Positions 12,862 through 20,129 of a stretch of 46,689 nucleotides of DNA are shown here, in pieces (position 1 is the stretch's first letter; every line of letters starts with the position of its first letter). This DNA is from a virus. The stretch lies in IMG/VR virus record IMGVR_UViG_3300042335_000264, positions 1 to 46,689 of that record. One strand, given 5' to 3'. Under the pieces are notes generated by a model, which had not been told where the DNA came from, did not search any database, and saw nothing but the letters and a program-made list of their open reading frames with translations. A program made the position numbers and the translations under genes.

Positions 12862-14885
12862 TATATAAACAATTTACTTTTTTTCCTTGGGAATAGTCCT
12901 CTTGATTCTGTGAATAGCTGGTTTTTCTTATTTGGTCTAAAGAACGCTTTCATTCTTTCATCTCCTGATCCCCCCACCTTTCCAAGTATGGGATCCATTT
13001 TAAGAGCTTGTGCAATAGCTAGTTCTGCAGCTACAATACGGTCAAAGTTACCCTGGTCATTATACTGAATTATCTCTTCTAGTAGAACAGGATCAAATAT
13101 CTTTGACACGCCTAACACCTCTTTAATAATGTCACCATCTTCGTTCTTCTCTTGATACACAATAGCCTCCATATACTTCTTGAGACAGTTGTGCAGATAG
13201 TCTCTTATCTTATCTGCTGAGCGGTGCACCCCATACTCACGTTTGACGGTGGTACCAGGCACCACTTCTTTCAACCATTCAGGTTGTTTCTCAAGGTAGT
13301 GTGCATCTCCTTTAGCTTTCATATATTCAATAAAGGAGATGTCATCATTTTCACAAAGTGTACGTGCATTGTAATACTTAATAAGAAGTCGAGCTTGTTC
13401 TTCCCAGGTTTCCTTCTTATCAGGTCGAGCACAATACGAAGCTACGAACATATCTTGGTATTTCTCACCAGTTATGTCGTGCATTCTTTTATAAACGTAC
13501 ACAGACCCTAATGATGTAGAATAAGCAGCTTGTCCTTGTCTATAAGGGTCAACCCCTGCTACATAGAGTCCGTATGGTGGGTTTTCTAAAGGAAACTCAT
13601 ATATCACTACAGGAGCATCCTTCAAATCACTGTTTTTAAGAGGGAAGTTGGTGATGGGTTGTTTATCTGTAAACTCATGACTAAGTTTCTCTCCATCATG
13701 AAACAGTATAACAGGTGTACCTGTGCGTTCTTGACCAATGAGTCTAGCTTTTTGACGTTTAGCTGCCTCAATATCAAATATGTTTGTGTCCTCATTTAGG
13801 AAGATGTCATCCACCTCAAGTGGGTAGTACATCTTCTCTTTTAGATAGGCCACCCTATCTCCAGCCTTCTTAAGGCGTTCTAGATTACCCTCTGTGATTT
13901 CTTTAGCCTTATCCTCATTACTCACCAGCATCCTTACATTATGTAGGTCGCTGTCTTTGGGCTGATCTAGAAATGCTCCAAGTGTACTTTCTTCCTTAGC
14001 CTCCATTCGATATTTATACGAAATAAACAGGCCATGAATACGTTTCTCATCCTTTTCATTGTTGTATGTAAGGAAGTTAAAGTTGTCTACATCAAACATC
14101 AGACTCTTGGCATCCATGAATCGCTTCATATCACCACCAGTACCTGTAAGAATTGGAGAGCACCCCCATCCATAAGGGGTGGTAAAACCTGGCACAGCTG
14201 CCTGAAAACCACGAAGAAAGTTACCCTTTCCAATCTCATCTATAATTAGTTTACGTGGTTTAGTACCAGCAATAGCTTCCTCGTTATTTCCCTCATCTAG
14301 GTTACGGATGAGTATCTGGGAGAACGGTATACGCTCTCCTGATTTGGTCTTAATACCTAGGGTGACTTGGTTTTTCCAGTTATCCTCAACCCTTTGCCAT
14401 CTCCATGCTTCAGGCAAAAAGTTAAGGCCCTTGTCCAGCTTATCTGTGATCAGCTTTATATCGGGGGCATTCAACCCAGCGATCACATTCTGGGAATTCT
14501 CATCAAATGTAGCGCCCCACCCTATGTAAGAAGCCTCTAGTACAGACTTAGCAAAACGTCGAATTCCTAGTATCACTAGTCCTTTCTTATCTTGCTGAGC
14601 CCTTTCTATTTCGTTTGTCACAATCCACTCATTATCACGAAGGAGTGGGTTGGCATATTTCTGTGATATTCTTCCGCGGTCATCAATAACATCCACCTCA
14701 GTGTGCCAGATGTTAAGGTGCCAATACAGAAAGGGGTTGATAAACACCCCATTCATCATAGCACCGTTCAAGCATATATCTCTATGGAAATCAAAGAAGG
14801 GTTTGTATTCAACTGAGTCACGGTCAGGAATACGCCCCTGGTTTAAATACCAGTCTTTGTAGTCTATGCTTTTAATTTCGTTCAT
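12861..14885 (-). CDS. terL: Terminase large subunit (packaging ATPase and nuclease)
   Basis: The protein has 674 residues. The ATPase half shows a deviant Walker A LGIRRFAKS (residues 106-114; Ala stands where Gly is usual before the Lys), Walker B KLIIDE (212-217) and a coupling region GCSPILTGTGG (241-251). The nuclease half begins with YVAGVDPYRQG (Asp446) and continues with CENDDIS (511-517) and an Asp in FDRIVAAE. The product drives DNA into proheads and cuts the concatemer. It shares one base with both neighbours, the probable small subunit upstream and the portal downstream. Confidence 0.92.
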   Translation of the reverse strand: MNEIKSIDYKDWYLNQGRIPDRDSVEYKPFFDFHRDICLNGAMMNGVFINPFLYWHLNIWHTEVDVIDDRGRISQKYANPLLRDNEWIVTNEIERAQQDKKGLVILGIRRFAKSVLEASYIGWGATFDENSQNVIAGLNAPDIKLITDKLDKGLNFLPEAWRWQRVEDNWKNQVTLGIKTKSGERIPFSQILIRNLDEGNNEEAIAGTKPRKLIIDEIGKGNFLRGFQAAVPGFTTPYGWGCSPILTGTGGDMKRFMDAKSLMFDVDNFNFLTYNNEKDEKRIHGLFISYKYRMEAKEESTLGAFLDQPKDSDLHNVRMLVSNEDKAKEITEGNLERLKKAGDRVAYLKEKMYYPLEVDDIFLNEDTNIFDIEAAKRQKARLIGQERTGTPVILFHDGEKLSHEFTDKQPITNFPLKNSDLKDAPVVIYEFPLENPPYGLYVAGVDPYRQGQAAYSTSLGSVYVYKRMHDITGEKYQDMFVASYCARPDKKETWEEQARLLIKYYNARTLCENDDISFIEYMKAKGDAHYLEKQPEWLKEVVPGTTVKREYGVHRSADKIRDYLHNCLKKYMEAIVYQEKNEDGDIIKEVLGVSKIFDPVLLEEIIQYNDQGNFDRIVAAELAIAQALKMDPILGKVGGSGDERMKAFFRPNKKNQLFTESRGLFPRKKSKLFI

Positions 14886-17832: not shown

Positions 17833-17902
17833 ATATCTGCTACCTGAACACCGAAAACCAACGAAACACTGTTATAACTGATTGTGTTTCAGTGTGTTAG
17901 AG

Positions 17903-18076
17903 AGTGGTTGTGTGACCCATCACCACTTATAAGGGGTAAAACCAGACATCACTAAAACGCATGTCTACAGAGAATATATATAGCATTAAATGTCTCTCTG
18001 GAAGCAAAATAATCGTCAACTGTAGTAAATATGCACGTTAGGGTTATTATGGCTATACAACACTGAGAGACATTTA
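17903..18076 (+). ncRNA. Candidate structured RNA, element A with upstream hairpins
   Basis: Within the 430-base gap 17776-18205 there is no gene. Two hairpins come first: AGTGGT/ACCACT (17903-17927) and AGACAT/ATGTCT (17944-17966). Then follows a perfect 12-bp inverted repeat, TAAATGTCTCTC (17987-17998) with GAGAGACATTTA (18065-18076), closing a 66-base interior and followed by TTTTATT as in a terminator. The strand is assumed from the T-rich end and neighbouring genes. Confidence 0.4.
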
Positions 18077-18084
18077 TTTTATTA

Positions 18085-18182
18085 CTAGCAGGTGTTAGGG
18101 CTAGTGCGTTCTATGTATACAGTATATACCATGTGAGAGGGTACAGTCTGCATCATCACGTCAGACATACTGGTATACATAG
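18085..18182 (+). ncRNA. Candidate structured RNA, unit 1 (CTAGC hairpin plus long stem)
   Basis: A hairpin CTAGC/GCTAG (18085-18104, 10-base loop) is followed 6 bases later by a perfect 10-bp stem, CTATGTATAC (18111-18120) with GTATACATAG (18173-18182). The 52-base interior holds a further GTCTG/CAGAC hairpin. The same order of elements recurs at 18513-18615. It ends 23 bases before the next start codon. Confidence 0.45.
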
Positions 18183-18205
18183 AGGTCACCAAAAAAACGA
18201 TTGTT

Positions 18206-18484
18206 ATGACAAAGACAGAGTTATTCAAGCTTATAGTTGATACATCTAGTGAGCTTGAAGAAGCCAAAGCTGAGATTAATAATGCCTCAGCACCAAGAGT
18301 TACCTATTCAGATATAGAAGATGTCAGCGATAGATATCAGTCTGCATTGGAATATCAATGGTGGTTAAGGGACCAAACAGAGCTCATAGAGCATTTACAG
18401 AACCGTTTGGATGATCTAAGGGCTCAAATGGATAACTATGAGCACAAGGGGTATGAATTTGTTGTTGTTAATAAGAGCCTGTAA
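18206..18484 (+). CDS. Early hypothetical protein, coiled-coil
   Basis: The protein has 92 residues, almost entirely helical and acidic: LIVDTSSELEEAKAEINNAS early and IEHLQNRLDDLRAQMDNYEH late, with heptad-like spacing. The last residues form a short strand (YEFVVVNK). The stop codon lies inside the loop of a terminator hairpin. No function recognised. It lies between the two structured RNA units. Confidence 0.7.
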   Translation: MTKTELFKLIVDTSSELEEAKAEINNASAPRVTYSDIEDVSDRYQSALEYQWWLRDQTELIEHLQNRLDDLRAQMDNYEHKGYEFVVVNKSL

Positions 18485-18500
18485 CAGGGCTCTTTTGTTT
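18473..18500 (+). terminator. Terminator overlapping the stop codon
   Basis: AAGAGCC (18473-18479) pairs with GGCTCTT (18488-18494) around an 8-base loop that contains the TAA stop codon (18482-18484). The stem is followed by TTG and TTTT. Ribosomes at the stop could open this hairpin, coupling termination to translation. Confidence 0.65.
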
Positions 18501-18512
18501 TAATGCACCATC

Positions 18513-18615
18513 CTAGCTTCCCAAGGGCTAGCGGTTGTAATAGATGAACAGTGAGATATCGTTACACAATACAGACTATGCTAGACATAGGAACTTGTGT
18601 TATATCTATTACAAC
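18513..18615 (+). ncRNA. Candidate structured RNA, unit 2 (CTAGC hairpin plus long stem)
   Basis: A CTAGC/GCTAG hairpin (18513-18531, 9-base loop) is followed by a perfect 12-bp stem, GTTGTAATAGAT (18534-18545) with ATCTATTACAAC (18604-18615). The interior has its own two-step hairpin: ACACAA (18564-18569) with TTGTGT (18595-18600), and CTATG (18576-18580) with CATAG (18586-18590). The order matches unit 1 but the stem sequences differ, as expected for conserved RNA structure rather than copied DNA. Confidence 0.5.
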
Positions 18616-18670
18616 TGAGTGCAGAGGGAAACATTAACCGTGGTTTCTTTACTGAAAAACGCATAACTAA

Positions 18671-19403: not shown

Positions 19404-19425
19404 TTATAACCTTTGCAGGACTTTA

Positions 19426-19456
19426 TCTATTAGACGTCATATAATAGAGGCTTTTT
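19426..19456 (+). terminator. Weak hairpin terminator
   Basis: TCTATTA (19426-19432) pairs with TAATAGA (19442-19448) and GGCTTTTT follows. The stem is A/T-rich. Together with the following leader it separates the genes ending at 19403 and starting at 19519. Confidence 0.4.
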
Positions 19457-19483
19457 GGTGATGCAAAACCATATTTTTTTTCT

Positions 19484-19518
19484 AATTCCTTAGTAATCAA
19501 TCACTTAAAACGATTTCT
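19484..19518 (+). repeat. Recurrent early-gene leader, copy 1
   Basis: AATTCCTTAGTAATCAATCA followed by CTTAAAACGATTTCT runs straight to the ATG at 19519. The same leader core occurs before 19712 and 20130 (nearly identical) and, more diverged, before 17347 and 23614. Confidence 0.5.
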
Positions 19519-19677
19519 ATGACATTTGAAGAAGCAAAAGATATGTATATGTTACATAGCATATCTCCAGAACTTACATGCACATGTGATGAGCTTCATA
19601 TGTGTCAGCAGTGTTCAGAAGACTTGAAGAACGAGTGTGATTTAAACTCGTTTGAATGTCAGTCACCTGAACAATAA
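19519..19677 (+). CDS. Small Cys-rich early protein
   Basis: The 52-residue frame runs from ATG 19519 to TAA 19677 and contains CTCDELHMCQQC, that is CxC plus CxxC, with one more Cys pair behind it. It has the recurrent leader in front and the next copy of the leader directly behind, so the boundaries are well marked. Zinc binding is likely. Function unknown. Confidence 0.6.
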   Translation: MTFEEAKDMYMLHSISPELTCTCDELHMCQQCSEDLKNECDLNSFECQSPEQ

Positions 19678-19711
19678 ATCCTTATTAATCAACAATTTAA
19701 AACGATTTGCT
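19677..19711 (+). repeat. Recurrent early-gene leader, copy 2
   Basis: It contains TTATTAATCAACAATTTAAA, identical over at least 20 bases to copy 3, then ACGATTTGCT and the ATG at 19712. It begins at the stop codon of the upstream gene. Confidence 0.55.
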
Positions 19712-20074
19712 ATGAAATTAGAACTTATTCGTAATGCTGACAATAAGATTGTTGGCTACAAGCTTCTTAAAGAGGCTACAGATGACACATTTGCCATTGA
19801 ATATGTTAGAGATATGATATTCTTTGGAATGGATGAGTGGGAGCTCACATATGATGGTAGAACAACAGATGATAATAATAACACTGTTGAGCTTAGATGG
19901 GCTACAAGAGAGCATAAAAGAAGGAAAAAAGAAGAAGAGGATGCAGGGTATGAAATGAGAAGGCCTTTATACGGTCATATTAGACAATATGAGCCTGATA
20001 ATAGATCCATCTATGGAATGCCGCATGAGGAATTGGTAGAACTGGCTGAAAAGTATGGTTATAAGAGCTCTTAA
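19712..20074 (+). CDS. Early hypothetical protein
   Basis: ATG 19712 gives 120 residues (MKLELIRNADNKIVGYKLLK). The frame is open further upstream only because the leader happens to lack stops. The middle is beta-rich with YDGRTTDDNNNTVELRWATR, followed by a very basic stretch (REHKRRKKEEEDAG) and an acidic helical end. It looks like a small nucleic-acid-associated protein, but no family is recognised. The stop lies inside a terminator hairpin. Confidence 0.7.
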   Translation: MKLELIRNADNKIVGYKLLKEATDDTFAIEYVRDMIFFGMDEWELTYDGRTTDDNNNTVELRWATREHKRRKKEEEDAGYEMRRPLYGHIRQYEPDNRSIYGMPHEELVELAEKYGYKSS

Positions 20075-20088: not shown

Positions 20089-20093
20089 CATAT

Positions 20094-20129
20094 AATTCCT
20101 TATTAATCAACAATTTAAATTCATTTAAC
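20094..20129 (+). repeat. Recurrent early-gene leader, copy 3
   Basis: AATTCC followed by TTATTAATCAACAATTTAAA and TTCATTTAAC runs to the ATG at 20130. Because a terminator ends at 20088, this leader must either be read through, contain its own start of transcription, or serve translation. Confidence 0.55.

Follow-up and report, generated by a model that had tools for sequence, protein, structure and literature searches.

The window, i.e. the whole 46.7-kb stretch of DNA analysed here, comprises the entire virus record IMGVR_UViG_3300042335_000264 and is probably a fragment of a larger genome. Its large terminase matches PHROG 6681, and the best tblastn relatives are Leptolyngbya phage Lbo-JY46 (41% identity), the Cellulophaga phages phi17:2 and phi4:1 (34%) and Crassvirales, e.g. 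ProJPt-Bp1 and cr118_1; a blastn search against INPHARED returned chance pieces only. Judged by sequence, the source of the window is a crAss-like phage. The structural genes and terL lie on the minus strand and are read leftward, and the early-side genes are read rightward on the plus strand from about 17.3 kb. Two long non-coding gaps of this early side, neither of which holds a convincing gene of its own, contain the structures considered here, units 1 and 2 (Table 1).

Several other non-coding features are found in the same region. A block kept in relatives (17870-17990), which reads CATTGATT..GTTAGAGAG..ATAAATATAGCATTAA, is probably the early promoter region. Between the promoter-like motif and unit 1 there is a third long perfect stem (17988-18075, AAATGTCTCTC/GAGAGACATTT, 11 bp), the place of which is taken in L077 and L036 by a tRNA-like sequence. 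An A+T-rich leader, TTATTAATCAATCATTTAAAACGATTT, is repeated before early start codons (19483-19530, 19675-19723 and 20092-20119), and a conserved, terminator-like non-coding block, AGGCTTTTTGGTGATGCAAAACCATATTTTTT (19416-19509 in the window), is found directly 3' of units in L005, L010, L016 and L025.

Table 1. Features of the early-side locus, in window coordinates, and hatchet matches in related contigs
Feature	Position	Strand	Evidence or remark
Early promoter-like motif ATATATATAGCATTAA, upstream of unit 1	17974-17989	+	common to many relatives
Unit 1, pseudoknotted RNA	18085-18192	+	8 homologues including the window; R2 116 bits (training sequence)
Unit 1 parts: hairpin CTAGC/GCTAG; TGCG; variable stem; GGTCACCAA	18085-18104; 18105-18108; 18109-18183; 18184-18192	+	
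Unit 1 pseudoknot, GGTG with CACC	18091-18094 with 18187-18190	+	complementary, invariant
Small early gene, 92 aa, between units 1 and 2	18206-18484	+	
Terminator-like hairpin AAGAGCC..GGCTCTT and TTGTTT, directly before the predicted cut	18473-18500	+	window sequence
Unit 2, putative twister-class ribozyme variant, entire, P1 to P1'	18496-18633	+	R1 97.2 bits, E 6e-29 (the window itself is among the 46 training sequences); covariation
P1 5' strand TGTTT, partner AAACA at 18629-18633	18496-18500	+	above swapped-flank control; double changes in 5/5 pairs
UAA, predicted cut U18501/A18502	18501-18503	+	U-A twister cleavage site (PMC6154101)
P2 5' strand UGCAC	18504-18508	+	compensatory variants UGCGU/ACGCA and UGUAC/GUACA
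T2 base C, opposite G18525 of L4	18509	+	paired in 45/46 sequences, without covariation
P4 hairpin CTAGC/GCTAG	18513-18531	+	97.8% paired; double changes in 5/5 pairs
P5, long variable hairpin stacked on P4	18532-18617	+	88.7% paired; double changes in 9/11 pairs; C18532-G18617 at the junction; perfect 12-bp core 18534-18545/18604-18615
P2 3' strand GUGCA	18619-18623	+	P2 compensation test
GAGGG: conserved G, A, then predicted T1 3' strand GGG	18624-18628	+	GCNGAGGG downstream in 108/114 units
Hatchet matches	L085:5635-5767; L091:6387-6553; L095:191-325; G034:2447-2609		viral contigs that also carry the twister variant

A preliminary description, made from the window alone, had pointed to a short CTAGC/GCTAG hairpin followed by a long perfect stem in each of the two gaps, and both layouts are present where it had placed them. 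Specifically, the hairpin strands of unit 1 (18085-18089 and 18100-18104) enclose a loop of 10 and its perfect stem, 18111-18120/18173-18182, has 10 bp (11 bp if counted from 18110); in unit 2, the strands 18513-18517 and 18527-18531 enclose a loop of 9, the perfect stem being the 12-bp core of P5. The position in the early region, on both sides of one small gene, had been recognized correctly, and the two structures are, as was thought, no tRNAs: ARAGORN finds neither tRNA nor tmRNA in the window, and no Rfam family reaches its gathering score there. On the plus strand, unit 1 folds with a z-score of about -2.4 and unit 2 with one of about -2.6 to -3.4, so that thermodynamics alone sets them moderately apart from shuffled sequences; in such a window, 2.1 perfect 10-bp stems enclosing 40-80 nt are expected and 3 are seen, and for 12-bp perfect stems the figures are 0.23 and 2. 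Since single-sequence folding is moderate and 10-bp stems are to be expected about twice per window, the strength of the observation comes from the relatives. Among these, the paired bases change with compensation, uncompensated changes being what the preliminary description had named as evidence against it, and the comparison bears out its view that the gaps hold conserved structured RNAs. It had overlooked the outer P1 and P2 helices, both predicted loop-to-3' pseudoknots, and the UAA and GAGGG of unit 2, as well as the absence of these core motifs from unit 1. Its proposal that the two units are diverged members of one RNA family has to be abandoned: within the window, the model R1 (for unit 2) matches unit 2 alone and the model R2 (for unit 1) matches unit 1 alone, and the two units have different core motifs.

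In TerL relatives (80 loci at 83-100% identity), the non-coding blocks 18465-18546 and 18605-18629 are common with the window, and the interior of the long stem of unit 2 differs. The extracted regions have a fixed frame, namely, TAATGCACCA, a 5-bp hairpin with the loop TTCCCAAGG, a long variable stem, and GAGTGCAGAGGG. A scan of IMG/VR with a pattern of the 5' half alone yielded at least 119 stretches, and about 180 distinct relatives of unit 2 were recovered from this database. At the places from the 5'-half scan with enough downstream sequence, 114 in number, the 3' core listed for GAGGG in Table 1 was sought within 300 nt downstream; upstream control segments contain it in 0 of 126 cases. 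A relative of the crAss-like TerL of the window (25-83% identity) is present in 15 of the 16 unit-bearing records tested, and, of 23 large related records, 17 have at least one unit detected by R1, most often one or two per genome and, in G028, three; the R1 match is missing at the same locus in several relatives, and eight named crAss-like phages gave no R1 match. A bacterial origin was rejected, the 10 exact-pattern matches in genome contigs being about the chance number; the sole genome-contig match that scores like a unit (L295, 43 bits) lies on a 4.6-kb contig in a lake MAG and is cut off by the contig end, and the match in L298 scores 22 bits with its stems broken. As far as these searches reach, the form represented by unit 2 is common in crAss-like phages of environmental bacteria.

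The pairing was assessed in alignment A1, in which 46 homologues were scored against the structure of Table 1. In addition to the values listed there, 99.6% of the cells are paired in P2 and 64% in P1; every whole-structure measure in A1 lies above all 500 shuffles, and slid controls are only 32-48% paired. For P1, an alignment-free test found three or more contiguous pairs at the exact twister position in 54 of 114 units, compared with 17.7 when the flanks were swapped. Because P2 is nearly invariant in A1, a scan was made for two altered P2 5' strands, and the 3' side was then inspected. Among units with a recognisable 3' core, UGCAC is accompanied by GUGCA in 115 of 117, and UGCGU by ACGCA in all 13. 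For UGUAC, the partner is GUACA in 45 of 52 units and forms a U-G wobble in the remaining seven. The scan amounts to a prediction test of P2 in which its fifth pair is included. The matches that have no 3' core (16 for UGCAC, 9 for UGCGU and 32 for UGUAC) include chance hits of the short patterns, and the P4 pairing counts split in the same way as the presence and absence of the 3' core; P4 is fully paired in 110 of 115 units. T1, between the CCC of L4 and the 3' GGG, is complementary in 46 of 46 sequences and invariant, and hence covariation cannot probe it; UAA is likewise invariant in A1, but belonged to the search pattern. The second canonical T2 pair (G-C) is absent and base 18508 covaries with P2, which makes a simple swap of T2 from GC/GC to CC/GG less likely.

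The lead to the identity of unit 2 was an Rfam twister-P1 match in the relative L149 (855-923, 48.5 bits), located 105 nt upstream of its unit. The printed Rfam twister-P1 consensus and unit 2 share the order UAA, P2, P4, UCCCAAG loop, P2', GAGGG, P1'. The P4 loop of unit 2 (L4, 18518-18526) contains the twister-type UUCCCAAGG, its CCC (18520-18522) is the predicted 5' strand of T1, and the C before P4 faces the G of AAG in L4 (T2). Unit 2 has the U-A step within UAA, the 3' GAGGG, and the stems P1, P2 and P4 of a twister, and the conserved G of GAGGG corresponds to the catalytic position of twister. Twister cuts at U-A, with T1 and T2 being the pairings of L4 with L1 and L2 (PMC6154101). The Rfam twister models find nothing on unit 2, even at E = 10, and it is therefore filed as a twister-class variant rather than a member of RF03160. 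EGFOA RNA (RF02955; 15.8 bits, E 0.77, below the 37.7 bits required) was rejected as a weak match whose helices disagree with those supported by covariation, and N4-type hairpin promoters for a virion RNA polymerase were dropped from consideration once the conserved core was recognized as that of twister, the block 17870-17990 being the better promoter candidate. We consider it probable that unit 2 is a twister-class self-cleaving ribozyme, of a form that is not in Rfam, which would cut early mRNA at U18501/A18502.

Some units depart from the common form. Tandem units of the twister variant occur within one intergenic region in L106 (9205-9544) and L189 (9873-10477). A conserved insert in the P4 loop is present in the long units L018, L061, L067, L141 and L189, and also in L062, L071 and L109; it reads GTGGATAT..GACTT .. 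GTGAAACCAC, followed by CTGATTA..TAATCAG before CTCCCAAGG, and could be a sensor domain or another ribozyme. On the minus strand of L007, an ORF for a GIY-YIG homing endonuclease (about 13250-14110 of the reverse complement) lies exactly in the P4 loop, the order around the insertion being CTTCCCAAG, the ORF, and TGACAG. The inner part of P5 comes in several sequence types that are common to contigs with different P4 (e.g. L091, L111, L132, L154 and L169), and it behaves as if it were a separate domain.

Other ribozymes, among them the canonical twister of L149, were found on the same strand as the units and no more than about 1.3 kb away. Hatchets have mostly come from metagenomic sequences for which no carrier is named. 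Here, hatchet (RF02678) is present in 4 of 40 related records at 78-82 bits (gathering score 51), in all four on the same strand as the unit and 0.9-1.1 kb upstream of it, with small ORFs between the two in the three cases inspected; one hatchet carrier, G016 (L085), has a crAss-like terminase. A pistol match in L110 (1398-1457), at 33.9 bits just under the threshold, lies 1.3 kb upstream of the unit with three ORFs in between. Self-cleaving ribozymes show enrichment in the vicinity of one another, and such reasoning from position led to the discovery of pistol, hatchet and twister-sister (PMC10085705). Matches to tmRNA are also seen in viral contigs, L260:2753-3226 (84 bits) and L095:8424-8820 (63 bits).

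The homologues of unit 1 share a hairpin, CUAGC/GCUAG or CAAGG/CCUUG, with the loop nGGUGUUAGG, followed by UGCG, a variable stem, and GGUCACCAA; in their alignment, 97.9% of the cells are paired, with double changes at five pairs, and the homologues L213 and L046 have short stems. In 6 of the 8, GGUCACC is followed at a distance of 12-17 nt by the ATG of an ORF of 63-92 aa. Unit 1 is not a twister, as it is devoid of the UAA-P2-GAGGG core and R1 finds nothing there; the Rfam ribozymes give no match to it at E up to 10, and an HDV-like, pistol or hatchet identity was discarded after hand comparison revealed no fit. The 45-56 nt that precede unit 1 in L058, L260 and L244 match the sequence before the twister variant in L067, L066, L166 and L189 at 89-96%, the matches of L244 to L166 and L189 being shorter (16-20 nt). 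In particular, L058 and L067 are 84.7% identical over the 1.5 kb that lead up to the element; past that point, unit 1 and the gene MSNLEF... come next in L058, and in L067 the twister variant is separated from the same MSNLEF gene by another small gene and a terminator-like hairpin. This shared upstream DNA indicates that unit 1 and the twister variant occupy the same slot, i.e. unit 1 holds sites that ribozymes hold in relatives (L058 vs L067; L244 and L260 vs L066, L166 and L189). The common design noted in the preliminary description may, then, go beyond chance, since each unit has a variable stem between a hairpin and a 3' tail that can pair with the hairpin loop, and since either unit may stand behind the same upstream element, although the two are different RNAs. 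The shared slot fits either two ribozymes or two leader structures. A tentative and rather doubtful possibility is that unit 1 represents a new structural class of self-cleaving ribozyme (a hairpin with the loop GGUGUUAGG, UGCG, a stem and the 3' tail, forming an H-type pseudoknot) that is exchangeable with the twister variant. If so, crAss-like phages would cut early transcripts around small genes with ribozymes of several kinds (twister variant, hatchet, pistol and unit 1).

The units lie in sense with the neighbouring genes in 57 of 63 cases, at a median distance of 169 nt from the next ORF start. The 45 nt upstream of the units fold better than nearby controls (mean -8.2 vs -5.7 kcal/mol, p 2e-6, 107 units); inasmuch as the strict count of hairpins ending within 13 nt of UAA (78 of 119) is not far from the control (51 of 113), it is the fold-energy test that carries the claim of an upstream hairpin. 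In the window, the predicted cut site lies right at the end of the hairpin 18473-18494 with its UUGUUUU tract. The most likely role of unit 2 appears to be the cutting of early phage transcripts, which would set mRNA ends. Upon transcription of the early mRNA, unit 2 would fold through T1 and cut the chain at the predicted site; the upstream message, with the 92-aa gene, would then end with the hairpin and a short U-rich tail bearing a 2',3'-cyclic phosphate, and the downstream message would start with the folded ribozyme, bearing a 5'-OH. Unit 1, which takes equivalent positions at the 5' ends of early mRNAs, may have a similar task. Genes for RtcB or TROVE, which could join or bind the cut ends, are absent from the 23 records searched. 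The early promoter motif directly adjoins the start of a twister unit in L012 and is separated from the downstream unit 1 by 19 nt in L273, so that in these records the effect would be on the 5' end only.

Cutting at such promoter-adjacent places would remove only a few bases, and this, together with the location of the units 5' of early genes at the above distance, would suit a scenario in which the twister fold persists with cleavage lost or unused, unit 2 being a structured 5' leader with a role in mRNA protection or in the tuning of translation, and unit 1 an alternative leader. We view this scenario as unlikely, considering that UAA and GAGGG are kept even where the stems are fully changed in sequence and that other ribozyme classes are found nearby. 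The terminator-like hairpin with a U-rich tract directly before unit 2, along with the stable hairpins before many units, might suggest transcription control instead, by a terminator plus an attenuator or antiterminator RNA (put-like) acting on RNA polymerase. The unit, however, lies 3' of the hairpin and accordingly is not yet transcribed when the polymerase arrives there, and such control does not predict the specific twister core, so that it strikes us as very improbable. The same low expectation attaches to the suggestion of the preliminary description that the units belong to a family of phage small RNAs, here taken to act in trans and possibly against the host: they are indeed structured, non-coding, and located in the early region, with copies clustered in some phages, but the upstream hairpin lies too close to unit 2 to leave space for a promoter of the unit, the inner part of P5, a possible targeting site, is not conserved whereas the ribozyme core is, and units 1 and 2 are different RNAs. 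The anti-host role is without support, and the best reading of unit 2 is that of a self-cleaving ribozyme acting in cis. A mobile or recombination element, with the DNA ends rather than the RNA conserved, would account for phages with more than one copy or with copies in tandem (L106, L189) and for the GIY-YIG ORF in L007, but is extremely improbable given that the compensatory changes follow RNA pairing, including a pseudoknot-compatible twister layout, that no target-site duplication is seen, and that there are usually only one or two copies per genome.

The task of self-cleaving ribozymes in bacteria and phages has yet to be settled, and PMC10085705 calls the reason for their gene associations unknown. 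Twister and hammerhead have been associated with Mu-like phage genes, according to work cited in PMC10085705; the literature searched, with subscription papers and the ZWD alignments lying outside it, holds no report of twister ribozymes in crAss-like phages, and an earlier description is possible. The twister variant described here recurs in one kind of setting, immediately 3' of a hairpin or promoter and 5' of small early genes, and further ribozyme classes lie in the neighbourhood. That it is common in a defined phage group, at a recurrent place and with one clear shared slot, makes its function testable. Furthermore, the current twister models appear to miss a sizeable branch, and the shared slot points, by position, to what may be a new ribozyme class.

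Compared with twister type P1 (RF03160), unit 2 has the same stem order, the same L4 motif UCCCAAG, and the same T1 complementarity, CCC/GGG; its P1 is weak, and a weak P1 is tolerated in the twister env22 (PMC6154101). The optional twister stems P0, P3 and P5 are found in 21, 78 and 1% of examples, respectively (PMC6154101). In contrast to the common twister form, unit 2 lacks P3, and P5 is always present and long. It also differs in its 5-bp P2 and in the replacement of the second T2 pair: of the two pairs GC/GC of the Rfam consensus, in which the base corresponding to 18508 is G, one appears to be kept (C18509-G18525). Hatchet and pistol have folds unlike those of units 1 and 2, and neither unit matches the models of these classes. 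No tRNA lies within 600 nt of the 63 twister-variant units tested, whereas the theta ribozymes of gut phages lie beside tRNAs and have an HDV-like fold, unlike the twister variant; they, too, are phage-borne and self-cleaving, and are thought to process phage transcripts (PMC10879173).
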